Positions 1 through 13,936 of a DNA stretch of 64,000 nt are shown piece by piece; the stretch's first letter is position 1, and the number at the start of each line of letters is the position of its first letter. The notes under the pieces were generated by a model that searched no databases, was not told the DNA's origin, and saw only the letters and a program-made list of their open reading frames with translations. The translations under genes and the position numbers were made by a program. The DNA is taken from NCBI RefSeq assembly GCF_003590945.1, contig NZ_QYUK01000011.1, forward strand, positions 2,198,001-2,262,000. The letters are read 5' to 3'. This DNA is from Oleomonas cavernae. GTDB lineage: Bacteria; Pseudomonadota; Alphaproteobacteria; Zavarziniales; Zavarziniaceae.

Positions 1-1
1 G

Positions 2-937
2 TTCGGCACCATCCTGGTCTACATGGCCGCGCGACCGGTGGTGGGCGAGGGTTTCGACGGCATGGTCTGGACCTCGCTGATGGCCAAGGTCGCGGCCTTC
101 GACCCGGCCCTGCTCAATGTCGCCTTCGTGTTCCTGCTGCTGGGCTACGGCACCAAGGTCGGCCTGGCACCGCTCCATGCCTGGCTGCCGGATGCCCATG
201 CCGAGGGCCCGACGCCCATTTCGGCCGTGCTGTCGGGCCTTTTGCTGAATGTCGCCCTCTATGCCGTGCTGCGCTTCAAGCTGCTGCTGGCCGGCAATCC
301 CGGGGCGCTGGCGCCCGGGCCGCTGCTGGTTACCATGGGGCTGACCTCGGTGATCTTTGCCGGCTTCATGCTGTATCGCCGCCGCGACATCAAGCGGATG
401 TTCGCCTATTCGTCGATCGAGCACATGGGCATCATCGCCTTCGCCTTCGGCATCGGCGGCCCGCTGGCCAATTTTGCCGGCCTGCTGCACATGACCATGC
501 ACAGCCTGACCAAATCGGCGATCTTCTTCGCCGTCGGCCATATCGCCCAGGCCAAGGGTTCGCAGAAGATCGCCGACATCCGGGGCCTGACCGTCACCCA
601 TCCGCTGCTGGGCTGGGGCCTGGTGCTGGGCGTGGTGGCGATCGCCGGCATGCCGCCCATGGGCATCTTCATGAGCGAGTTCCTGGTGGTCAGTTCGACC
701 TTCGCCCGCGAGCCGCTGCTGGCCCTGCCGCTGGTCCTGGGCCTGCTGGTCGCGTTCGGCGCGCTGATGCTGCGCCTCCACGGCCTGGCCTTCGGGGAGC
801 CCAGCGGCAACAATGCCCGGGTGGAGGCGTCCTATCTGCCCCTGGCGGCCCATCTCGCCCTGGTCTTCACCGCCGGCATCTACCTGCCGCCGCCGCTGGT
901 CGAATGGTTCCAGCACGTCGCGCGGATGCTGGGCTAG
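2..937 (+). CDS. hyfF: Hydrogenase-4/complex-I-like proton antiporter subunit, 5' truncated by window
   Basis: This is the C-terminal ~311 residues of an NuoL/NuoM-type antiporter subunit, most like HyfF. The frame is open to the window edge, and the first visible Met at 23 is internal. Visible landmarks are the conserved 'PLHAWLPDAHAEGPTPISA' segment, a Lys/His-bearing helix around 'HMTMHSLTKSAIFF', and about nine hydrophobic helices. It sits in the inner membrane and would couple electron transfer to proton or sodium movement. It is followed 18 bases later by the NuoD-like subunit, so these are co-transcribed. The family is certain. The exact subunit name rests on the HyfG/HyfI neighbours. 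Confidence 0.85.
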   Translation, partial: FGTILVYMAARPVVGEGFDGMVWTSLMAKVAAFDPALLNVAFVFLLLGYGTKVGLAPLHAWLPDAHAEGPTPISAVLSGLLLNVALYAVLRFKLLLAGNPGALAPGPLLVTMGLTSVIFAGFMLYRRRDIKRMFAYSSIEHMGIIAFAFGIGGPLANFAGLLHMTMHSLTKSAIFFAVGHIAQAKGSQKIADIRGLTVTHPLLGWGLVLGVVAIAGMPPMGIFMSEFLVVSSTFAREPLLALPLVLGLLVAFGALMLRLHGLAFGEPSGNNARVEASYLPLAAHLALVFTAGIYLPPPLVEWFQHVARMLG

Positions 938-955
938 GCGCGGGAGGGAGATGCC

Positions 956-2473
956 ATGGCGACATTGCTCGATACCATCGCCGGCGGCCACCTGGTCGAG
1001 GCGCACCGGCCCTACCCCCGCCGGATCGTGGACGCGCCGCTGTGGCAGGCGCTCGGCGCCGGGCTGCACGAGGGGCACTGGCGCCTGCTGGGCCTGTGGG
1101 GCGAGCCGGCGGCGGTACACATGGCGTTGCTGGACGAGGCCGCGGGCCTGCCGGCGGTGGCCAGCCTCGCCTGCCCGGACGGGACCTTTCCCTCGGTCGC
1201 GCAATATCATCCGCCGGCCAGCCGCCTGGAGCGTGCCCTGTGCGATCTCACCGGCCTGGCCGCGACGGCGGCGCCCGATGCGCGGCCCTGGCTGGACCAC
1301 GGCCGCTGGGACCTGCGCCATCCCCTGGGCCAACGCCTGCCCGCCGCGACCGAGGTGCCGCCCTACGCCTTCCTGACCGCCGACGGCGAGGGCCTGCACC
1401 AGATCCCGGTCGGCCCGGTCCATGCCGGGATCATCGAGCCCGGGCATTTCCGCTTCACCGCCAACGGCGAGGCCGTGGTCCGGCTGGAACAGCGCCTGGG
1501 CTATGTCCACAAGGGCATCGAAGCGCTGATGACGGGGGCGTCGATCGAGCGCGCGGCCCGGCTCGCCGGCCGCACCTCGGGCGACAGCACTGTCGCCTAC
1601 GCCTGGGCCCTCGCCCGCGCCGTCGAGGCCGCCCTGGGCGCAACCGTGCCCGAGCGCGCCGTCTGGCTGCGGGCCCTGATGGCCGAACTCGAACGCCTGG
1701 CCAACCACTTCGGCGATATCGGGGCGATCTGCAACGATGCCGCCTTCGCCCTGATGCTGGCCCACTGCGGCGTGCTAAGGGAGCAGGTCCTGCGCGCGGC
1801 GAATGCCTGCTTCGGCCATCGCCTGATGATGGACCGCGTCGTGCCCGGCGGCGTCGAGGTCGCCCCCGGCCCGTTGGACACCACGCCCATCCGTAACCTG
1901 ATCGATGTCGCGACCAAGGCTTTTCCGGCCCTGGTCAAGCTCTATGACAACAAGGCCTCGCTGCAGGACCGGACGGTCGGCACCGGCATCGTCCGCCCCG
2001 CCCTGGCGCGACAATACGGCTGCGGCGGCTATGTCGGGCGGGCCTCGGGCCTGGCCTTCGATGCCCGCCGGCAGCTCGCCTACCCGCCCTACGACGGCTT
2101 GCGCTTCGAGGTGCCGGTGTTGCGCGAAGGCGACGTCAATGCCCGGGTCTGGATCCGCATCCGCGAGGTCGAACAAAGCCTCGCCCTGGTCGGCCAGATC
2201 CTGAAGGCCCTGCCGCCCGACGGGCTGACGCGCATCCCGCTGGCCGAGGTTGACGGACCGAGTGAAGGCGTGGGCCTCGTCGAAGGGTTCCGCGGCGATA
2301 TCCTGGCCTGGGTCCGCCTGGATGCCGGGGCCCGCGTCGGGCGCTGCCACCTGCGCGATCCGTCATGGTTCCAGTGGCCGCTGCTGGAGGCCGCGATCGA
2401 GGGCAACATCGTCGCCGACTTCCCCCTTTGCAACAAATCCTTCAACTGCTCTTATTCAGGGCACGATCTCTAG
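956..2473 (+). CDS. hyfG: HyfG/NuoD-like large subunit lacking all NiFe-binding cysteines
   Basis: This 505-residue protein fuses a NuoC-like N-terminus (about 1-130) to a NuoD/hydrogenase large-subunit domain, as in HyfG/HycE. The family signature 'LGYVHKGIE' is at about 181-189. The first NiFe motif (normally R-x-C-G-x-C) reads R-T-S-G-D-S at 206-211, so both cysteines are serine. The C-terminal motif (normally D-P-C-x-x-C) is replaced by PLCNKSFNC at about 490-498, and the protein ends at HDL with no C-terminal processing peptide. It therefore cannot bind a conventional NiFe centre. It belongs to the 'energy-converting hydrogenase related' (Ehr) type. The electron partner and redox reaction are unknown. 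Confidence 0.85.
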   Translation: MATLLDTIAGGHLVEAHRPYPRRIVDAPLWQALGAGLHEGHWRLLGLWGEPAAVHMALLDEAAGLPAVASLACPDGTFPSVAQYHPPASRLERALCDLTGLAATAAPDARPWLDHGRWDLRHPLGQRLPAATEVPPYAFLTADGEGLHQIPVGPVHAGIIEPGHFRFTANGEAVVRLEQRLGYVHKGIEALMTGASIERAARLAGRTSGDSTVAYAWALARAVEAALGATVPERAVWLRALMAELERLANHFGDIGAICNDAAFALMLAHCGVLREQVLRAANACFGHRLMMDRVVPGGVEVAPGPLDTTPIRNLIDVATKAFPALVKLYDNKASLQDRTVGTGIVRPALARQYGCGGYVGRASGLAFDARRQLAYPPYDGLRFEVPVLREGDVNARVWIRIREVEQSLALVGQILKALPPDGLTRIPLAEVDGPSEGVGLVEGFRGDILAWVRLDAGARVGRCHLRDPSWFQWPLLEAAIEGNIVADFPLCNKSFNCSYSGHDL

Positions 2474-2483
2474 GCGCCGCGCC

Positions 2484-2999
2484 ATGCAGAAGCTGCTGCT
2501 CGAAAGCCTGATCAAGGCCCCGTTCACCGAACCCGCGCCCCAGGCCGACACGGTGGCGCTGGCCGAACTCGCGACCCGGGTCGACCGGGCCGCGCGCGCC
2601 CGCCTGGGCCGCAGCCTGTCCATCCGTCAGGTCGATGCCGGTTCGTGCAACGGCTGCGAGCTTGAAATTCACGCCCTGGGCAACGCCTTCTACGACCTGG
2701 AACGGTTCGGGCTGCGCTTCGTCGCCTCGCCCCGCCATGCCGACGTGCTGCTGGTGACGGGCCCGGTGACCAGGAACATGCGGGAAGCGCTCCAGCGCAC
2801 CTATGACGCGACACCGGGGCCCAAATGGGTGGTCGCGGCCGGCGCCTGCGCGCGTGACGGCGGCCTGTTTGCCGACAGCTATGCCTGCGTGGGCGGGGTT
2901 GGCGCCGTCATCCCCGTGGACATCCATATCCCCGGCTGTCCGCCGACGCCGACCGCCTTGCTGGGCGGCCTGCTGGCCCTGCTGACGAAAAGCGCCTGA
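2484..2999 (+). CDS. hyfI: HyfI/NuoB-like [4Fe-4S] small subunit
   Basis: This 171-residue protein starts at ATG 2484, 10 bases after the large-subunit stop. It has the four cysteines expected for an N2-type [4Fe-4S] cluster: C55 and C58 in 'SCNGCE', C122 in 'GACA' and C152 in 'GCPP'. It would carry electrons to the large subunit at the membrane face. The iron-sulfur cluster ligands are intact even though the Ni ligands of the partner are lost, which argues that the complex still works but with different chemistry. It is the last gene of the visible operon. A convergent gene follows 5 bases later. Confidence 0.85.
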   Translation: MQKLLLESLIKAPFTEPAPQADTVALAELATRVDRAARARLGRSLSIRQVDAGSCNGCELEIHALGNAFYDLERFGLRFVASPRHADVLLVTGPVTRNMREALQRTYDATPGPKWVVAAGACARDGGLFADSYACVGGVGAVIPVDIHIPGCPPTPTALLGGLLALLTKSA

Positions 3000-5108: not shown

Positions 5109-6296
5109 TCAATTCAACCGCTCGACCGCCAGCGCGGTGGCCTCGCCGCCGCCGATGCACAGCGACGCGACGCCTTTGCGCAGGCCGTATTTCTCCAGCG
5201 CGGCGAGCAAGGTCACGATGATGCGGGCCCCCGAGGCGCCGATGGGATGGCCCAGGGCGCAGGCGCCGCCGTGGACGTTCACCGTGGCAGGGTCCAGCCC
5301 CAGATCGCGGATGGCGGCCATGGCGACGACCGCGAAAGCCTCGTTGATCTCGAAGAGATCGACATCCGCCTTCGACCAGCCGGTGCGGTCGTAGAGTTTT
5401 TCGATGGCGCCGATCGGCGCGGTCGCGAACAGGCTGGGCGCCTGGGCATGGGTAGCATGGCCGCGGATCGCCGCGATCGGGGTCAGGCCGCGGCGCTCGG
5501 CTTCCGACTGACGCAGCAGGACCAGGGCGGCGGCGCCGTCGGAGATCGAACTGGCATTGGCGGCCGTCACCGTGCCGCCCTCGCGGAAGGCCGGCTTGAG
5601 CGTGGGGATCTTGTCGAGCTTGGCCTTGGGCGGCTGTTCGTCCAGGGAGATTTCGCGGGCCGCCTTGCCCGAACCGGACGTAACCGGGACGATTTCCTTG
5701 GCGAAGCTGCCGTCGCCGATGGCCTTCTGCGCCCGCGTCAGGGATTCGATCGCATAGGCGTCTTGCGCCTCGCGCGAGAACTGATAGGCCTGCGCGCAAT
5801 CCTCGGCGAAGGTGCCCATCAGGCGGCCCTTGTCATAGGCATCCTCGAGCCCATCGAGGAACATGTGGTCCATCACCTTGGCATGGCCCATGCGCAGGCC
5901 GGCGCGCGCCTTTTCCAGCAGATAGGGCGCGTTGGTCATGCTTTCCATGCCGCCGGCCACCACCACATCGGCGCTGCCGGCGACCAGCAGGTCATGGGCG
6001 AACATGGCCGCCTTCATGCCCGAGCCGCACATCTTGTTGACCGTGGTCGAGCCGGCCGACAGCGGCAGCCCGGCACCCAGTGCTGCCTGGCGGGCCGGGG
6101 CCTGGCCCTGCCCCGCCGGCAGGACGCAGCCGAACACCACTTCCTGGACGGTATCGAGGGCAAGGCCCGCGCGCTCCACCGCCGCCTTGATCGAGGCGGC
6201 GCCCATCTGGGCCGCGGTCATGTCCTTCAGGTCGCCCTGAAAGCCGCCCATGGGCGTGCGCGCGGCACCGACGATGACGATGGGATCTTCAGCCAT
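5109..6296 (-). CDS. Acetyl-CoA C-acyltransferase (thiolase)
   Basis: This 395-residue thiolase carries the nucleophilic Cys in '[10 protein letters not shown]', the '[13 protein letters not shown]' loop, the active-site His in '[16 protein letters not shown]', and the second catalytic Cys in '[11 protein letters not shown]'. It cleaves 3-ketoacyl-CoA with CoA, or runs the reverse condensation. The length and motifs are complete. It sits between the SDR (17 bases upstream) and the acyl-CoA dehydrogenase, which favours the degradative role over PhaA-type polyhydroxybutyrate synthesis. Confidence 0.93.
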
Positions 6297-6313: not shown

Positions 6314-7072
6314 TTACTTGGCGGCCATGCGCAGGGCACCGTCCAGGCGGATGACCTCGCCGTTCAGCATGCGGTTCTCGCAGATGTGCTTGACCAGGGC
6401 GGCGAATTCCGCCGGCACGCCGAGGCGCGAGGGGAACGGCACCAGCCTGCCCAGGGATTCCCGCACCTCGGGCGCCATGCCGGCCATCATCGGGGTCTCG
6501 AAGGTGCCCGGCGCGATGGTGACGACGCGGATGCCGGAACGCGCCAGTTCACGCGCGATCGGCAGGGTCATGCCGGCCACGCCCGCCTTGGAGGCGGCGT
6601 AGGCGGCCTGGCCGATCTGGCCGTCGAAGGCGGCGATCGAGGCGGTGTTGACGATCACGCCACGCTCGCCGTCTTCGCCCGCAACACCCGTCGACATCGC
6701 CTGGGCGGCAACGCGGATCATGTTGAAGGCGCCGATCAGGTTGACGCCGATGACCTTGGCGAAGCTGTCCAGGCGATGGGGCGCGGCCTTGCCCACGACC
6801 TTCTCGCCGATGACGATACCGGCGCAGTTGGCGAGGCCGTGGAGGGTACCGAAGCGGGAGATTGCGGTATCAACCACAGCTTGAGCATCGCCCTCGCTGG
6901 TCACGTCGGTGCGCACGAAAACCGCGCGTTCGCCAAGTTCGACCGCCAGACCGCTGTCGTTGACGTCGGCGATGACGGCATTGCCGCCGCCCGCGACGAC
7001 CATGCGGGCAGTGGCGGCGCCCAGGCCCGAGCTGCCGCCGGTGACAATGAAAGTGTTACCTGCGATCTGCAT
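6314..7072 (-). CDS. SDR 3-hydroxyacyl-CoA dehydrogenase (HSD10 type)
   Basis: This 252-residue short-chain dehydrogenase has the NAD-binding glycine motif '[11 protein letters not shown]' at about 12-22, 'NCAGI' in the core, catalytic Ser in 'NTASIAAF', and the Y-x-x-x-K motif in '[12 protein letters not shown]'. The C-terminal '[17 protein letters not shown]' is typical of the type-2 3-hydroxyacyl-CoA dehydrogenase (HSD17B10-like) subgroup, which acts on short and 2-methyl-branched substrates. It lies in an operon with ligase, thiolase and dehydrogenase genes, so it fits the third step of beta-oxidation. The enoyl-CoA hydratase is not in this operon. Confidence 0.88.
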
Positions 7073-7094
7073 TCTTCACTGTTCCTTCGACTTG

Positions 7095-7242
7095 GTAGCC
7101 CTCTCCGCCCTTCAGGGGGGAGTGGGTTGGGTGAGGTGGGTGGTCCCGAAGAGCGCCGCGCTGCCCCGGAACCACCTCACCCTTCCCATCGCTGACGCGA
7201 CGGGCCCCTTCCCTCTCCCCCGCAAGCGGCGGAGAGGGATTA
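7095..7242. repeat. Palindromic 'CTCTCCGCC' intergenic repeat, copy 1
   Basis: The element is bounded by CCCTCTCCGCCC at the left and GGCGGAGAGGG at the right. It has inner arms GGGTGAGGTGGGTGG and CCACCTCACCC. It lies between the acyl-CoA ligase and the SDR inside the operon, and a near-identical element in opposite orientation is at 48036-48178. The nested arms can form a long cruciform or RNA hairpin, which may tune expression between the ligase and the three downstream genes. Confidence 0.7.
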
Positions 7243-7243
7243 A

Positions 7244-8875
7244 TCAGGCGGCACTCGCCTTGGCCACTTCCTGGTTGCGCAGGATGAAACGCTGGACCTT
7301 GCCACTGGGCGTCTTGGGCAGGTCGGTGACGAATTCGACCTCGCGCGGATAGGCATGGGTGGAGAGCCGGCGGCGGACGAACTGCTGGAGTTCCTCGGCC
7401 AGTTGCGGCGTCGGCTCGTAACCCTTGGCGAGCACGACGAAGGCCTTGACGATCTCGGTGCGCTCGGGATCGGGCTTGCCCACCACCGCGGCTTCGACCA
7501 CCGCCGCGTGTTCGATCAGGGCGCTTTCGACATCGAAGGGACCGATGCGGTAACCGGCCGAGGTGATGATGTCGTCCGAGCGGCCGACGAAGCTGATGCT
7601 GCCGTCATCGTTCAGTTCGACCGTGTCGCCGGTCCGGTAATAGTGGCCGACGAAGGACGGGGTTTCCTGGTTCAGATAACCGGGGAACCAGAACAGCGGC
7701 GACTTCGAGCGGTCGACGGCGAGGATACCCGGCTGGCCCGGCGGCAGTTCCCGGTTGGCCTCGTCGAGCACGCAGACACGGTAGCCCAGCATGGCGAGGC
7801 CGGCGGACCCTAGGCGGATCGGATGCTCGAGCTCGTGGTGGTTGTTCACCACCATGCCCAGTTCGGTCTGGCCGTAGTGATCATGGATCGGCGCTGCCAG
7901 ATGTTCGGCGAACCAGCGGATCACTTCGGGGTTCAGCGGCTCGCCGGCGCTGCTCACCGCCCGCAACTGGCCCTTCACCGCGGCGGCGGCCTGTGGCCCG
8001 GCCGCGATCAGCAGGCGGTAGGCGGTGGGCGAGCCGGCCAGGTTGGTGATGCCCAGCTTCTTGATCAGGCCATAGGTGCTCTCGACCGTGAACGAACCGT
8101 CATAGAAGGTGGTGGCATGGCCCATGGCCAGCGGCCCGGTAACCGCGTAGTAGAGGCCGTAGGCCCAGCCGGGATCGGCAATGTTCCAGAACTTGTCGTC
8201 CGGCCGCAGACCGACGGCGTCGCGCATGTAGACGATGAAGCTCAAGATCGCCTTCAGCGGCACCGGCACACCCTTGGGCAGGCCCGTGGTGCCCGAGGTG
8301 AACATCATCAAGAAGGCATCGTCGGCACCGCGCAGGACCGGCGTGAATTCGGCCGATTGGCCGGCCAGCGCCGCCTTGAAGTCGAAATCGCCGGCGCGCA
8401 GGTCGTCGGTGATGGTCACGACTGGCGGGCAATCCTTGACCTCGTCCAGCTTGCCCCGATTGGTTGCATCCGTAACCACCAGGCGGCTCTGCGCGCTGGC
8501 CACCCGATGCTCGATCGCCTTGGGGCCGAAGGCGGTGAACAGCGGCTGATAGACCGCGCCGGCGCGCCAGGTGCCCAGGATCGTGATCAGCAGTTCGGGT
8601 GTGCGCGGCAGCAGGCCCGAGATGCGGTCGCCCGGCTTCACCCCCTGGGCGACCAGGAAATTGGCGAATTTGGCCGACAGCGCCTTGAGCTGGCCGAAGC
8701 TGTAATCGGCGCTGGCGCCGTCGCGGCCTTCCCAGTGCAGGGCAAGCGCGCCCTGGTCGTGGCGGTCGCAGCATTCGATGCAGGCATTCATGCCCGCCTT
8801 CGGGTCGATGCCGAGTTCGGCTTCCAGCGCGGACACGGTGAAAGCCTTCGCAACGGTTTCATATGGTCGCTTCAT
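7244..8875 (-). CDS. AMP-forming acyl-CoA synthetase
   Basis: This 543-residue ANL-superfamily ligase has the P-loop '[17 protein letters not shown]' at about 190, the 'YGQTELG' motif, '[23 protein letters not shown]' and the C-terminal catalytic Lys in '[12 protein letters not shown]'. It activates a carboxylic acid to its CoA thioester via acyl-AMP. The sequence is closer to acetyl/medium-chain ligases than to long-chain FadD. It is the first gene of the degradation operon, and its start faces the divergent AraC regulator across 147 bases. Confidence 0.9.
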
Positions 8876-8918
8876 CGCGCCTTACCCTTTTCCGCGGTCG
8901 TTTCCTGGCCCTTGCCCT

Positions 8919-8930
8919 GGGGTTAACCCC
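8919..8930. promoter_or_regulatory. 12-bp perfect palindrome in divergent promoter region
   Basis: GGGGTTAACCCC lies in the 147-base gap between the acyl-CoA ligase (leftward) and the AraC regulator (rightward). A pair of TCGATT direct repeats with flanking CCCGAT/ATCGGG arms lies further right, at about 8970-9010. Either could be the AraC operator. AraC proteins usually bind direct repeats, which favours the TCGATT pair. No protein-DNA evidence is available. Confidence 0.4.
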
Positions 8931-9022
8931 ATTGCGGCCAAGCTACAATGGCAGCAGGCTCCAAATTGCCCGATCGATTTTGCAACATGGGTCGATTGAA
9001 CGAATCGGGAAGGTGAACCGGC

Positions 9023-10054
9023 ATGCTGCGCGGCACGATCTCCGTGCGCCTCATCGAGGAGGCCCTGGTGGAGCCGCGCCGCCGCGGGCTGGACACGGAC
9101 GCCCTGCTGGCCGCGGCGGGGATCGAGCCGGCCCTGATGGCAGACCCCGCCGCCCGCGTGCCGGCCGCCCACTACGGCGCCTTGTGGCTGGGCCTGGTGC
9201 GGGCCATGGACGACGAATTCTTCGGCATGGACAGCCATCGGATGAAGCCCGGCAGCTTCACCTTGATGACCCACGCCGTGGCCCAGGCCCAGACCGTTGG
9301 CCAGGGCTTAGGCCGGGCGCTGCGTTTCCTGGGCGCGGTGCTCGACGACATGCAGGGCCAGGTCACCCGCGAAGGCGACCGGGCCGAGGTCGTCCTGGCC
9401 GAGCCGGGCGCCCCGCGCCGCGCCTTCACCTATTGTACCTTCTGGCTGATCCTGCATGGGCTGACCTGCTGGCTGGCCGGCCGGCGCATCCCCATCATCG
9501 CCGCCGATTTCCGCTGTCCGGCGCCGGATTACATCGACGACTACCAGACCCTGTTCACCCATGACCTGCGCTTTGGCCGGGCCCGTACCCGCATCGTCTT
9601 CGACGCGGCCTTCCTCGACCTGCCGGTCAAGCGTTCGACGCCCGAGGTAAAGGCCTTCCTGCGCAAGGCACCCGCCAACATCCTGGTCAAGTACCGCTCC
9701 AACGACAGCCTGACCGTGCGGGTGCGCCGCCTCCTGCGGGCAAGCCTGCCCACGGCCTGGCCCGATTTCGACAGCCTGGCTGGCACCCTCCACATGTCCC
9801 CCTCCACCCTGCGCCGGCGCCTGGACGGCGAGGGCCAGAGCTATCAGTCGATCAAGGACAGCCTGCGCCGCGACCATGCCGTGCGCTGCCTGGGCCGCGG
9901 GCAGCAAAGCGTCGCCGCCATCGCCGAGGAACTGGGCTTCGCCGACCCCAGCTCGTTCCACCGCGCCTTCAAGAAATGGACCGGCCTGCAGCCCAACGAA
10001 TACCGGCGACGGGCCGGTGAAGGACAGGCCGGCGGCCGATTAACTGAAGCTTAA
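9023..10054 (+). CDS. AraC-family regulator with arabinose-binding-like N-domain
   Basis: This 343-residue protein has an N-terminal effector domain of the OruR/'Arabinose_bd' type (about 15-205). The C-terminal double helix-turn-helix is at about 245-333, with 'LAGTLHMSPSTLRRRLDGEG' and the second helix 'VAAIAEELGFADPSSFHRAFKKWTGLQPNEYRR'. It is transcribed divergently from the ligase-SDR-thiolase-dehydrogenase operon and is the obvious candidate activator, probably responding to the acid or CoA ester that is degraded. The start at ATG 9023 follows GGGAAGGTGAACCGGC. Confidence 0.88.
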   Translation: MLRGTISVRLIEEALVEPRRRGLDTDALLAAAGIEPALMADPAARVPAAHYGALWLGLVRAMDDEFFGMDSHRMKPGSFTLMTHAVAQAQTVGQGLGRALRFLGAVLDDMQGQVTREGDRAEVVLAEPGAPRRAFTYCTFWLILHGLTCWLAGRRIPIIAADFRCPAPDYIDDYQTLFTHDLRFGRARTRIVFDAAFLDLPVKRSTPEVKAFLRKAPANILVKYRSNDSLTVRVRRLLRASLPTAWPDFDSLAGTLHMSPSTLRRRLDGEGQSYQSIKDSLRRDHAVRCLGRGQQSVAAIAEELGFADPSSFHRAFKKWTGLQPNEYRRRAGEGQAGGRLTEA

Positions 10055-10156
10055 GGCTGCGGACCGTCATAATTGGCCACCTATCCCCTCACCGCTCGTG
10101 CGTGACAAGGCGACCATGGCCCCCAAGAAGCCGGCAGACCCAACCAAGTCCCAAGC

Positions 10157-13100
10157 GTGCAGCGCCCACGCCGGACTGCGTTGTCGCCGGCAGCAGGCTT
10201 TGTCGTGACCGCTCCCGCGACACAACGCGTCGAGGCCCGCGAGATCGCCGCCGCGCCGATCGCGGCCGGCGACAGGATCTGGCCCCACCCCGCCCAGCCT
10301 TCTCCGGCGCTGGCGGCGGCATCGGCGAACAGCCATGTCAGGCAAGGCGCCATCGTCGCCTGGCTCTATTTCATCCTGGCGGTGGCCTGCATCGCCCTGT
10401 CGCGATTGCAGGTGGGCGAGATCGCCAACCTGTGGCTGGGCAATGCCGTCGTCATCGGGCTGGTCTGGCGCAACCCGGCCTGGCATGGCCGCTATCTCCT
10501 GGGCGGCATATTCCTCGCCGCCACGGCCGCGAACCTCGTCACCGGTGCCGATATCGTACTGGCCCTGGGCCTTTCCGCCGCCAACCTGATCGAGATCGCG
10601 TTGGCCATCACCCTGCTGAACTGGCTCAGCCCGATCGGGCAACGCATAGCGACCCCCGCCTCCTACTTCATCCTGATCAGCATCGCGCTGGCGGCCGCCG
10701 CCGTCGGCGCGACCTGCGGCTCCCTGTTTCTCGCCCTGAGAGGGCAGGCCGGTTTCACCTTGAGCTGGTGGCCGTGGTGGAGCGGCAGCAGCACGGGCGC
10801 CCTGATGGCCCTGCCCCTGGCCGTCGCGGCCTCGAAAGCCGCCTGGCAGGAAATGCTCGAAGGCAGCCGGAAATGGGAAGCGCTGGCCTTTGCCCTGCTG
10901 TCGGTACCGCTGGTCAACTACGCCCTGGCCCACCTGCACTATCCGCTGGCCGTGGTGGCCCTGCCCCTGGTGTTCATGGCGCTGCGCCTGAATGCCCTGG
11001 CGATCGCCCTGCTCGCCCTGATCAAGATCAGCACGGTCATCGCCACCGGCCTGACGGGAAACATCATCAGCGTGGCCGGCCAGGCAGGCTTTCTGGGGAC
11101 ATCGCTGCAACTCTCGGCCGGGCTGGCGATCCTGCCGGCGTTCTGTGTCGCCCTGGTGATCGGCCGCCAGCGGGTCGACCAGCATGCCCTGCGCAAGAGC
11201 GAGGCGCGCTTCCGCAACGCCATGGACAATTCGGCCATCGGCATGGCGCTGGTCGGCCTCGACGGTTCCTGGAACCGGGTCAATCGATCGCTCTGCGAGA
11301 TGCTCGGCTACAGCCCGGACGAGCTGCTTCACACGACATTCCAGGCGATCACCCATCCAGACGACCTCGCCTCGGATTTGAACGAGGTCGGGCGCGTCAT
11401 TGCCGGCGAAATCGACAGCTACCGGATGGAGAAGCGCTATATCCGCAAGGACGGCAGCATCATCTGGGCCCTGCTCGCCGTGTCGATCATGCGCGATCCG
11501 CGTTCGAGGGTGCCGCTCTATTTCATTTCGCAGATCGAGGACATCGACAAGCGCAAGCAGGCCGAGGACGAGCAACGCTCCCTGACCGAAGCCCTGTACG
11601 AGGAAAAGGAGCGGCTGCGCACGACGCTCTATTCGATCGGCGACGCCGTCATGTGCACCGATGCCGAGCAGCGCGTGACCTTCATGAATCCGATCGCCGA
11701 ACAACTGACCGGATGGCTGATGGCCGAGGCCTCGGGGCGGCCGTTGACCGACGTCTTCAGGCTGGTCGAACAGGGTACGGACAAGCCCGCCCCCAGCCCG
11801 GTCGAAGCCTGCCTGCGCAGCCTGGCCCCCTACTACATCAACGGCGACCTGGTCTTGATCGCGCGCAACGGCGAACGCCGCAGCATTCAGGATTCCGCCG
11901 CCCCGATCCGCAAGGCATCGGGCGACATCATCGGTTCGGTCCTGGTGTTCCAGGATGTCACCAAGGCCAAGACCCTGCAGCGCGAACTGGAACATTCGGC
12001 ATTGCACGATGCCCTGACCGGGCTGCCCAATCGCAAGGCCCTGGAACAGGGGCTGACCGCGGCCTGCCAGCAGGCGAGCCAGCAGAACCGTGCACACAGC
12101 CTGTGCTTCATCGATCTCGACCGCTTCAAGGTGATCAACGACAGCGCCGGCCACGCCGCCGGCGATGTCCTGCTGCGCGAGGTGGCCAGAACCATCCGCG
12201 CCAATGTCCGCACCGGCGACCTGACGGCACGCCTGGGCGGCGATGAATTTGCCGTCATCCTGGCCGACTGCGCGATCGAGCAGGCCGAAGGGATCGGCAA
12301 CAAGCTGGTCGAGGCGATCGGGGCGATGTCCTTCGTCTGGGACGAGAAGATCTATACCCCGGGGGCCAGCATCGGCATCTGCGAAATCTCGCCCACCGCG
12401 ACCCTGGGCGACCTGATGAGCCAGGCCGACGTCGCCTGCTATGCCGCCAAATCCGCCGGCCGGAACCGGGTCTCGCTCTACCGCCCGGGTGAAAGTGATG
12501 CCAAGCGTCACCACCAGGACATTCATGTCGCCGCCGGCATCCGCGCGGCGATCACGGCCAACCGCTTCCGCCTGTTTGCCCAGGAAATCCTCGATCTGCG
12601 CCAGGACGGGCGGCGCCGGCCCTACTACGAGATCCTGCTCCGGCTGGAGAACGAAGCCGGCGAGATGATCGCGCCGGGCGGCTTCATCCCCGCCGCCGAG
12701 CGCTACGACCTCATGGGCGACGTCGATCGCTGGGTGGTGCGCACCCTGTTGCGCGACTACGGCCCGCGGCTGCGCGGGGCGCACGACCTGGCCCTGGCGA
12801 TCAACCTGTCGGCCAATTCGCTGAACGATCCCTCGCTGTGGCCCTTCATGCAGACGGAATTGCACGCCTCGGGCCTGGCGCCCGGGCGGTTGCATTTCGA
12901 GATCACGGAAACCGCCCTGATCAACAACCTGCAGGCGGCAAGCCAGTTCGTTTCGGCCGCGCGGGCCGCCGATTGCAGCATCACGCTCGACGATTTCGGC
13001 TCGGGCCTCAGTTCGTTCCCCTATCTGCGGCAGTTTCCGGTCGACCAGATCAAGATCGACGGCAATTTCATCCGCCAGCTCAAGACCAGCATGGCCGACC

Positions 13101-13267
13101 GCACGATCGTCGAGGCGATCAACGACCTGGGCCACCGGTTCGGCGCGACCACGGTCGCGGAATTCATCGAGGATGCCGAAACCCTGGCCATCGTGCGGGA
13201 AATGGGCGTCGACAAGGCACAGGGCTATTTCATCGGGCGCCCGGTGCCGCTCGATTCCATCCTATAA
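10157..13267 (+). CDS. MASE1-PAS-PAS-GGDEF-EAL cyclic-di-GMP enzyme
   Basis: This 1036-residue membrane signalling protein has a MASE1-like multi-helix sensor (about 63-334) and two PAS domains beginning about 348 ('SEARFRNAMDNSAIGM') and 484. The GGDEF domain has an intact GGDEF at about 694-698 and an RxxD inhibitory site (RTGD) exactly five residues before it. The EAL domain reads EIL instead of EAL at about 824, yet keeps later acidic motifs 'FEITETAL', 'LDDFGSG' and 'KIDGNFI'. It can probably make c-di-GMP with product inhibition and may also degrade it. The start is uncertain: GTG 10157 and GTG 10204 are both possible. It stands alone with no obvious operon partner. Confidence 0.88.
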   Translation: MQRPRRTALSPAAGFVVTAPATQRVEAREIAAAPIAAGDRIWPHPAQPSPALAAASANSHVRQGAIVAWLYFILAVACIALSRLQVGEIANLWLGNAVVIGLVWRNPAWHGRYLLGGIFLAATAANLVTGADIVLALGLSAANLIEIALAITLLNWLSPIGQRIATPASYFILISIALAAAAVGATCGSLFLALRGQAGFTLSWWPWWSGSSTGALMALPLAVAASKAAWQEMLEGSRKWEALAFALLSVPLVNYALAHLHYPLAVVALPLVFMALRLNALAIALLALIKISTVIATGLTGNIISVAGQAGFLGTSLQLSAGLAILPAFCVALVIGRQRVDQHALRKSEARFRNAMDNSAIGMALVGLDGSWNRVNRSLCEMLGYSPDELLHTTFQAITHPDDLASDLNEVGRVIAGEIDSYRMEKRYIRKDGSIIWALLAVSIMRDPRSRVPLYFISQIEDIDKRKQAEDEQRSLTEALYEEKERLRTTLYSIGDAVMCTDAEQRVTFMNPIAEQLTGWLMAEASGRPLTDVFRLVEQGTDKPAPSPVEACLRSLAPYYINGDLVLIARNGERRSIQDSAAPIRKASGDIIGSVLVFQDVTKAKTLQRELEHSALHDALTGLPNRKALEQGLTAACQQASQQNRAHSLCFIDLDRFKVINDSAGHAAGDVLLREVARTIRANVRTGDLTARLGGDEFAVILADCAIEQAEGIGNKLVEAIGAMSFVWDEKIYTPGASIGICEISPTATLGDLMSQADVACYAAKSAGRNRVSLYRPGESDAKRHHQDIHVAAGIRAAITANRFRLFAQEILDLRQDGRRRPYYEILLRLENEAGEMIAPGGFIPAAERYDLMGDVDRWVVRTLLRDYGPRLRGAHDLALAINLSANSLNDPSLWPFMQTELHASGLAPGRLHFEITETALINNLQAASQFVSAARAADCSITLDDFGSGLSSFPYLRQFPVDQIKIDGNFIRQLKTSMADRTIVEAINDLGHRFGATTVAEFIEDAETLAIVREMGVDKAQGYFIGRPVPLDSIL

Positions 13268-13270
13268 CGC

Positions 13271-13458
13271 TCAGCGTTCCCGCGGATACTGCTCCGGGCG
13301 CTCCTGATAGTAAGGCGGCGGGTAGTAGTTATAATAGGCGGGACCGGAACCCGCATAGTAGTCCGGCCCGCTGTCCCCGGGAACACGATGCAGCCGCCGA
13401 GCGGCGCGACGGCGGCGAGCAAAGCACCGGCCAGAATTCTTGGCCTCAATCCGGTCAT
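13271..13458 (-). pseudogene. Tyr-rich small lipoprotein, frameshifted (paralogue 1)
   Basis: From ATG 13458, preceded by GGAGGA, the frame encodes a lipoprotein signal MTGLRPRILAGALLAAVAPL with lipobox GGC, then CIVFPG. Adding one G to the GGGG run (plus strand C 13375-13378) restores 'DSGPDYYAGSG' and a Tyr/Pro-rich tail ending YPRER, stop at 13271. The restored junction CIVFPGDSGPDYY parallels CVAYPVDSGSRYY of the third paralogue at 14065-14421, which is strong evidence that the two frames are one gene of about 62 codons. This is either a true loss-of-function indel, phase variation or a sequence error. Confidence 0.72.
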
Positions 13459-13516
13459 TTTTCGTCCTCCGATCCATACTCATCGGATTCAACGCGCCGC
13501 AACGCCTTAAGGTTCG

Positions 13517-13936
13517 CTACCGGTCGTCCTTGCCCCGCTGGAAGCGGGTGGAGTCGTAGCTCACGTACCAGCGGCCATCGTCGGGACTGCGGTAGTAGTA
13601 GCGATCATCGGGGATCGCGGCGTCGTAGTAGCGCGTTGGCGGCGCCGCCGGCACATAGTAGACACCCGTTGGCGCCGGCGCCGGGGTGGGCGCGTAATAC
13701 GACGGGACGACATAGTATCCGGGTGGCGTATAGGCGGGCACGGCGCGCGCAGGTACCGTGCGCACCGGATAGTAGGTCGGTTCGCCATAGTAGGTCGGAT
13801 CGGTGCTGCCTGAATAATAGGCTCGCCCGCCGGCGTCGACCTGCTCGACACGTCTTTGGGCACAACCGGCGAGGGCGGCCGCCAGGGCGATCGCGGCCAG
13901 GCCGCCGCCGATGATTTTGGCCTGTAGTCGTTTCAT
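13517..13936 (-). CDS. Tyr-rich lipoprotein (paralogue 2)
   Basis: This 139-residue secreted lipoprotein starts at ATG 13936 with the Shine-Dalgarno GGAGGACAG. The signal MKRLQAKIIGGGLAAIALAA ends in lipobox LAGC. The mature part is dominated by Tyr-Tyr pairs, Pro and Ala ('TYYGEPTYYPVRT', 'GYYVVPSYYAPTP'), and ends RFQRGKDDR. The family is unknown. It is probably anchored in the outer membrane or periplasm. It is the middle of three paralogues that share the same leader, lipobox and ribosome-binding pattern, so the cluster arose by tandem duplication. The upstream reading frame to 14068 is not needed. Confidence 0.7.
   Translation of the reverse strand: MKRLQAKIIGGGLAAIALAAALAGCAQRRVEQVDAGGRAYYSGSTDPTYYGEPTYYPVRTVPARAVPAYTPPGYYVVPSYYAPTPAPAPTGVYYVPAAPPTRYYDAAIPDDRYYYRSPDDGRWYVSYDSTRFQRGKDDR

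Follow-up and report, generated by a model that had tools for sequence, protein, structure and literature searches.

Introduction

How is a complete pump of the complex I type driven when it contains a single recognised cluster and lacks a nickel-iron (NiFe) site? This bioenergetic question is raised by an operon of Oleomonas cavernae whose 3' part opens the stretch of DNA analysed here (hereafter the window: 64,000 nucleotides, positions 2,198,001 to 2,262,000 of the forward strand of contig NZ_QYUK01000011.1, assembly GCF_003590945.1). An initial annotation of the window had assigned positions 956–2999 to the large and small subunits of a hydrogenase-4 (Hyf)-like complex, a placement that proves right, and had described the complex as an 'Ehr'-type, ion-coupled redox machine rather than a hydrogenase. 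We find that this NiFe-less Hyf complex is real, well conserved and endowed with the tested features of the named Ehr group. It is almost certainly not a hydrogenase, it very probably moves ions, as judged from its sequence, and the kept cysteines make it fairly likely that it is redox-driven as proposed.

Loss of the NiFe ligands in the large subunit

The HyfG-like large subunit (956..2473, + strand; 505 amino acids) matches PF00346 with 129 bits and also PF00374. Its nearest solved relative is Escherichia coli HycE (PDB 7z0s_E, E 3e-45), which is also the best Foldseek match of its AlphaFold model. In the alignment with HycE, a comparison that the initial annotation had recommended, S208 and S211 of the degenerate motif R206-T-S-G-D-S211 (1571..1588, + strand; R-x-C-G-x-C in hydrogenases) sit at the first ligand cysteine pair, so that both cysteines are indeed replaced by serine as had been claimed. 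The reading of the degenerate C-terminal motif, C492-N-K-S-F-N-C498-S499-Y-S-G502-H-D-L (2429..2470, + strand), stands in part: C492 and C498 are present and the C-x-x-C pair is lost, but the former do not take the place of the latter, since the ligand columns are occupied by S499 and G502, which C492 and C498 adjoin. Altogether, none of the four ligand cysteines is left.

This loss is shared by the close relatives, i.e. the 80 best of at least 581 relatives, 65 to 72% identical, which make 81 rows with the window's protein. Counted by alignment column, the ligand positions read SSSG in 79 rows, SSAG in one and CSSG in one (first pair: SS in 80 of 81, CS in one). Because the four Ni ligands are all missing from 79 of the 80 close relatives, and the remaining one has a single ligand cysteine, a sequencing error at the motif is excluded and the claim that the complex is not a hydrogenase gains strong support. 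In a wider alignment of 58 rows, the ligand columns read CCCC in all five true HycE/HyfG sequences; among the other 53 rows, which are NiFe-less and include the window's, 50 have no cysteine there and three have one. C492 is a cysteine in 81/81 close rows and C498 in 76/81. Across the family, the redox role that had been suggested for this pair is not supported, cysteines being found at these positions in just 23 and 25, respectively, of the 53 NiFe-less sequences; betaproteobacterial members carry Ile and Leu there, and all five true HycE/HyfG carry Ile and Pro, respectively.

Other residues of the former pocket are well conserved in the 53 NiFe-less rows: E161, the Glu of the hydrogenase E-P-G-H-F-R stretch, in 50, R206 in 52, and D210, a newly gained Asp, in 44. 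The roles that we assign to ligand and pocket residues are those generally attributed to them in these families. The window's protein ends at the C-terminal motif, without the hydrogenase-type C-terminal extension, HycE rows continuing for about 35 residues past the last ligand cysteine. It would take an unusual nickel ligation for such a protein to be a hydrogenase, a hypothesis that the presence in the genome of HypD and of a separate NiFe hydrogenase gene could favor. We regard it as hardly credible, given that the ligand cysteines are missing from the window's protein and from 79 of the 80 close relatives, that the C-terminal extension is absent and that no HycI-type peptidase was found near the 80. 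Conversely, missing maturation as the cause of the ligand loss was considered and rejected, HypD being present in the genome.

The small subunit and the membrane arm

The HyfI/NuoB-like small subunit (2484..2999, + strand; L004 12484-12999; 171 amino acids; PF01058), whose nearest solved relative is HycG (7z0s_G), contains all four cluster cysteines (residues 55, 58, 122 and 152), as initially reported. These [4Fe-4S] ligands are kept in 100/100 aligned rows, the window's included (101 sequences had been sought).

The window opens inside a six-gene operon, and the initial annotation had suggested looking for hyfB, hyfC and hyfE further upstream. Extending the locus by 10 kb in that direction (L004, in which a coordinate is the window position plus 10000, the large subunit thus lying at 10956-12473) revealed these genes and the rest of hyfF, which completes the set in the order XRE regulator-hyfB-C-E-F-G-I. 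More specifically, the operon comprises a gene for an XRE-type regulator (L004 5573-5875, 100 amino acids, with weak helix-turn-helix matches under the Pfam cut-offs), hyfB (L004, start about 5880-5886, end 7883; NF005086, 894 bits, over cut-off), hyfC (L004 7880-8830; PF00146), hyfE (L004 8830-9492; best match NF008556, 84 bits, under its cut-off of 136) and a hyfF-like gene for an antiporter subunit of the NuoN/M type (L004 9489-10937; NCBIfam NF005043, 883 bits, over cut-off), which starts 512 bp before the window and the C-terminal part of which occupies window positions 1..937 (+ strand). Three of the five hyf gene junctions overlap by 1 to 4 bases, and the other two are gaps of 18 and 10 bases. 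This gene content recurs: all six hyf genes are found in 68/68 close loci of 15 kb or more (12 of the 80 are shorter), together with the XRE gene in 65 of the 68.

The channel residues of the arm are conserved as well. The six sites of HyfB (E/K/H/H/K/E) are kept in 76/76 close rows; those of HyfF (E134, K223, H334, H338, K342 and E397) in 79/79 rows at five sites and in 78/79 at the sixth, with one gap (the HyfF sites are likewise conserved when rows are restricted to those whose best match spans more than 60% of the query); E140, E191, E205, E211, E216 and E281 of HyfC in 74/74; and E161 and E179 of HyfE in 75/75. Distant rows keep the channel sites with few exceptions. In addition, HyfC displays two histidines, H203 and H210, found in 74/74 close rows and in 26/27 and 27/27 distant rows, respectively; these positions are Glu and Gln in 4/4 true Hyf/Hyc sequences, and His and Glu in the Burkholderia-type members of the fluoride-linked branch described below. 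On the strength of this alignment, H203 and H210 can be considered marks of the NiFe-less family. We assume that the stretch that contains them lines up with the loop of NuoH at the cavity mouth.

Electron partners and a candidate mechanism

A feature that had escaped the initial annotation is that no HyfH-type electron wire is found near the close relatives. Queries for HyfH, HyfA, HycH and HycI, taken from the true Azospirillum Hyf cluster (L169), matched 0/80 close loci (12 of these under 15 kb) and 4/4 true Hyf/Hyc loci, the query source included. Among 27 distant loci, the HyfH query matched one (L120), which holds a second, divergent complex with a ferredoxin-like domain in HyfI. By eye, the flanking genes being named from their translations, L004 contains no HyfH or HycI gene, and its 20 kb no formate dehydrogenase or NuoE/NuoF-like gene. 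Nor did PF00346 and PF00374 searches of the genome find a second intact hydrogenase large subunit in the operon, a possibility that the initial annotation had raised: the sole other PF00346 match is NuoD, about 0.7 Mb off, and the PF00374 hydrogenase lies about 2 Mb away.

We propose that the operon, which opens with the XRE-type regulator gene, encodes a six-subunit NiFe-less Ehr-type complex of the hydrogenase/complex I superfamily. HyfB, HyfC, HyfE and HyfF, with their predicted channel residues intact, would form the ion-translocating arm. In HyfG, the [NiFe] ligands have turned into a conserved Ser/Asp/Ser set while E161 and R206 are retained, and the HyfI cluster would be the only recognised cofactor. 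Since no HyfH-type wire is encoded nearby, we infer direct electron exchange between the HyfI cluster/HyfG pocket and a partner that may be soluble or in the membrane. The resulting change at the pocket would be relayed via HyfC to the antiporter-like subunits, thereby coupling a non-H2 redox reaction to H+ or Na+ transport, probably in a setting of low-oxygen or stress energy conservation. The ion-coupled part of the initial proposal thus agrees with the intact arm and its redox part with the kept HyfI cysteines, from which the redox drive is deduced.

Several observations weigh against this scheme. Electron transfer is read from the kept cysteines alone, and no electron partner was recognised near the operon. 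The AlphaFold model of the large subunit (30 sequences; mean predicted local distance difference test score 72) scores below 50 at residues 127-186 and 483-505, where most of the pocket motifs lie, so that the pocket is unresolved in the model. All four pocket-side HyfI cysteines are gone in two relatives, from Mycobacterium branderi and Allomeiothermus silvanus (see below). The low-oxygen link is indirect: in a scan of 74 close and 30 distant loci (those with too little upstream sequence were dropped), boxes resembling what we take to be the FNR consensus were weakly enriched upstream of close loci (4/74 with at most one mismatch for 0.69 expected, 18 with at most two for 8.2 expected) and not enriched in distant ones (0/30 for 0.33 and 3 for 3.15 expected, respectively). 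Finally, at the threshold applied, the window's genome has no match to the SpeE-like and YoaK genes that accompany the complex elsewhere (see below), which therefore cannot be required.

One alternative is that the complex works as a miniature complex I, a soluble donor reducing the HyfI cluster, and the latter a membrane quinone lodged in the HyfC/HyfG/HyfI cavity. In its favor, HyfG is of the NuoD family and HyfI of the NuoB family, the membrane arm is intact, and D261 of the large subunit aligns with an Asp of Nqo4, presumably the partner of the quinone-site histidine. On the other hand, His38 and Tyr87 of Thermus thermophilus Nqo4, which we take to be quinone-site residues, correspond to I160 and G209 in the window's protein; position 160 is His in none of the 53 NiFe-less rows, and position 209 is Gly in 49 and Ala in four. 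We consider this alternative unlikely.

Relationship to known complexes

The Ehr assignment proposed by the initial annotation is borne out by three features: group 4 homology of the large subunit (besides HycE, MbhL, 6cfw_L, E 3.6e-35), absence of the NiFe-binding cysteines, and Mrp/NuoL-type antiporter subunits in the operon (hyfB and hyfF, over cut-offs). It is an assignment by features. The tree, built from the 58-row set minus six near-duplicates plus NuoD, places the true hydrogenase rows and NuoD on one side of a branch and the NiFe-less rows on the other, with support 99/96; the exact places of the long branches (VarA, Allo, M. branderi, Alicyclobacillus and NuoD) are unsure, and the join of M. 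branderi is possibly false according to a program warning. Unlike the FDH-Ehr proposed for Margulisbacteria, the window's locus has neither a formate dehydrogenase nor a NuoE/NuoF-like gene by eye, and no HyfH wire was found there. In N. moscoviensis, Ehr expression is reported not to be raised by H2 (PMC12342949).

E. coli formate hydrogenlyase (FHL)-1/Hyf (PDB 7z0s), the nearest solved relative of both soluble subunits, differs by its NiFe ligands, and true Hyf/Hyc loci carry HyfA, HyfH, HycH and HycI, none of which was found in the window's group. The characters of a hydrogenase-4/FHL, namely four NiFe-ligand cysteines and HyfH and HycI in the cluster, are thus absent. The MBS sulfane sulfur reductase (PDB 6u8y), which we take to be a non-hydrogenase of the complex I superfamily, is more remote: the window's protein scores 102 bits to MbsL, below HycE, MbhL and Nqo4. 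An actinobacterial relative in Rhodococcus sp. WAY2 is 39.5% identical and has the HyfI gene first in the operon.

Some counterparts already have other names. According to PMC2864759, Cupriavidus metallidurans CH34 and C. necator H16 possess hyfBCEFGI, the same six genes as in the window's operon, termed an incomplete hydrogenase-4 operon. The protein of C. metallidurans FDAARGOS_675 is 47.6% identical to the window's and NiFe-less too; Cupriavidus differs by a nearby CopG-type regulator gene, where the window's group has XRE, and by Ile/Leu at the C492/C498 positions. We also assume that the rv0082-rv0087 operon of Mycobacterium tuberculosis encodes the same kind of complex. The likeness is one of names, these six genes being called oxidoreductase, hydrogenase or formate hydrogenlyase in PMC6901956, which also reports that they are regulated by Rv0081, an early hypoxia response factor.

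A fluoride-riboswitch-linked branch and the question of redox chemistry

A related branch of the family is part of bacterial gene clusters for defence against fluoride. Six NiFe-less large subunits are linked to a fluoride riboswitch (RF01734), the first of which came to light on a B. cenocepacia plasmid (L125), in a relative of 30% identity. There, the riboswitch (6167-6237, 55.9 bits) precedes the first gene of the complex (6477-13893) by 240 bases, and the complex adjoins genes for CrcB, an inorganic diphosphatase, a DUF190 protein and a chloride-channel-type protein. In L154 (genome G466), the riboswitch lies by the large-subunit gene, with enolase, diphosphatase, DUF190 and channel-type genes around (by eye). 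It is found about 3.4 kb before the large-subunit gene in Caballeronia (L170, unannotated), 235 bases before the first gene in B. multivorans (L171), before a NUDIX gene and the complex in M. branderi (L167; enolase, DUF190, Usp and mismatch-repair genes near) and about 145 bases before the large-subunit gene (11875-13371) on an Alicyclobacillus plasmid (L124). No membrane subunits are annotated in the 25 kb read of L124; the other five members have the antiporter arm. None of the six large subunits has a ligand cysteine, bar one in M. branderi, and all form one clade (support 100/98), which the NiFe split groups with the window's protein. The complexes resemble the window's by their NiFe-less HyfG and differ by the riboswitch and gene order; the channel sites are complete in four of the six. 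Their genes carry NADH-quinone oxidoreductase or hydrogenase annotations, and HyfI of the Burkholderia, Caballeronia and Mycobacterium members has an extra N-terminal ferredoxin-like domain. No riboswitch match was obtained in related loci of A. silvanus (L166) and B. pyrrocinia (L172), nor in L119, L120, L121, L123, L151-L153 and L155-L157. Fluoride control of the window's operon was also rejected: L004 has no Rfam match at gathering scores, and no RF01734 match exceeded the cut-off genome-wide.

That these six fluoride-riboswitch-linked 'formate hydrogenlyase' relatives are NiFe-less is new here; no open-licence paper that says so was found by title or abstract start. In the literature, formate hydrogen lyase is listed among crcB-motif genes (Weinberg 2010, PMC2864571), and a 2024 review explains the riboswitch-controlled genes as a formate-oxidising FHL (PMC11139923), an explanation that needs the very NiFe ligands that the six members lack. 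The link to fluoride also provides a handle on the family.

A second new observation is that two relatives have lost the pocket-side cluster cysteines of HyfI: M. branderi (L167 12498-13292), which reads SNGSDEWE, GTDAISGG and GAPASP where the window's protein reads SCNGCELE, GACARDGG and GCPPTP, and A. silvanus (L166 12263-13135), which reads NTGLDDTE, GNEAIGG and GSPARP at the same stretches. Both keep a C-x-x-C-x-x-C motif and a C-P in the N-terminal ferredoxin-like domain, which would suffice for one [4Fe-4S] cluster (by eye), both loci are otherwise complete complex I-type gene sets, and each case is one plasmid record. A. silvanus retains all twelve HyfB/HyfF channel sites examined, with HyfC position 216 changed from Glu to Asp; M. 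branderi departs at HyfB 336 and at HyfC 211 and 281 (T211 and N281 instead of Glu).

These two cases, in which the HyfI cysteines are lost along with the NiFe set (bar one ligand-column cysteine in M. branderi), could be taken to indicate a redox-free machine, in which the HyfG/HyfI cap binds a ligand or partner protein and, through a change of conformation, drives or gates the antiporter-like arm. In a variant, chemistry in the cap would be powered by the ion gradient, again without electron transfer. The intact channel sites of A. silvanus and the failure to find a HyfH wire near the close relatives would fit. We nevertheless deem such a machine improbable for the window's complex: the four HyfI cysteines are kept in 100/100 rows of its own family, the exceptions are one plasmid record each and, with cysteines for one cluster in the N-terminal domain, need not be redox-free themselves, and M. 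branderi, given its HyfC substitutions, may be decaying. A broader version, to which we give no better chance, is that the NiFe-less Hyf family, fluoride branch included, is leaving redox chemistry, the NiFe site being lost first and then, in some lines, the pocket-side cluster, while the ion-pumping arm stays and the former active site turns into a sensor or non-redox catalyst coupled to ion transport under stress (fluoride, low oxygen). Whichever applies to them, relatives keeping versus losing the pocket-side cluster constitute a natural series on the need for redox in such a pump.

Distribution and neighboring genes

The family, named Ehr, is common and already described, a point that the initial annotation had missed. 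An even sample of 398 Pseudomonadota genomes, counting the window's own, yielded 80 with a large-subunit match (E up to 1e-30): 63 have a relative at 43% identity or more (hand count; one partial match), ten have one at 30-32%, three of which were read (G110, G166 and G240) and are HycE with all four cysteines, three (G039, G295 and G363; 27-30%) belong to a fast-evolving NiFe-less group, and four have matches that look like NuoD by extent. The viral contigs searched contained no relative. Annotated records call the relatives hydrogenase 4, formate hydrogenlyase, nickel-dependent hydrogenase or NADH-quinone oxidoreductase. Note that L151-L153, from three small genomes of one family, carry a very fast-evolving NiFe-less version (R-I-N-A-x-D-S) with the HyfI cysteines kept in the aligned stretch; the two included in the tree fall inside the window's group, with a branch length of 4.9 changes per site. 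In L143 and L144, the NiFe-less operon contains two tandem hyfB-like genes.

The operon has a linked SpeE-like (spermidine-synthase-like) gene (L021 2556-3305 and homologues) both in alphaproteobacteria (Mesorhizobium, Bradyrhizobium) and in betaproteobacteria (Variovorax, Paraburkholderia, Burkholderia), the regulators differing, an association that is new here. This gene occurs at seven places in 14 genomes that bear the complex (together about 94 Mb from their printed sizes), and six of these places are within 7 kb of the large-subunit gene for about 0.02 expected by arithmetic. In the 398-genome sample, it has a match in 77 genomes, with five places beside the complex, far above chance; the query was itself taken from such a neighborhood. 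Similarly, four of the seven YoaK/DUF1275 places in 15 genomes lie within 7 kb of the complex. By locus, the neighbors among the 68 close loci are SpeE-like (18), DUF4365 (14), YoaK (12), SulP (6) and YjdM (6).

The six SulP transporters, together with a hexapeptide-repeat protein, gamma-carbonic anhydrase-like by eye, encoded directly upstream of hyfB in L140, might point to a bicarbonate/CO2 machine, which we presume would be comparable with the DAB or NDH-1MS complexes. This is very unlikely, as five of the six SulP loci are from Competibacteraceae, the hexapeptide protein occurs at one locus and neither gene was found beside the window's operon (L004). Among other regulators, an XRE-cupin gene is present in 8/20 loci from other Pseudomonadota genomes (immediately 5' of hyfB in L139 and L144), and a CopG-type gene in 4/20 of these and in 7/10 plasmid or Burkholderiaceae-type loci. 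The Burkholderia lxa low-oxygen locus was considered as the home of the betaproteobacterial version and set aside, three papers not saying so; likewise, nothing on this complex was found for Mesorhizobium bacteroids or C. necator.

Other features of the locus and genome

The operon is flanked upstream by purC, purQ, purL, a transglutaminase-like gene and a BolA-like gene and downstream, on the opposite strand, by an arsC-like gene and genes for an acyl-CoA dehydrogenase and a thiolase (all by eye). The separate NiFe hydrogenase large subunit of the genome (L174 8181-9750, G000:C11 about 200181-201750) has both cysteine motifs, the second in another frame, an apparent frameshift that is either real or an assembly error; a small-subunit-like gene precedes it, and hypD follows about 9 kb after. 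Finally, a palindrome, TGATGTTTTATACATCA, lies at L004 5477-5493, about 80 bases 5' of the XRE regulator gene, and is a possible operator.

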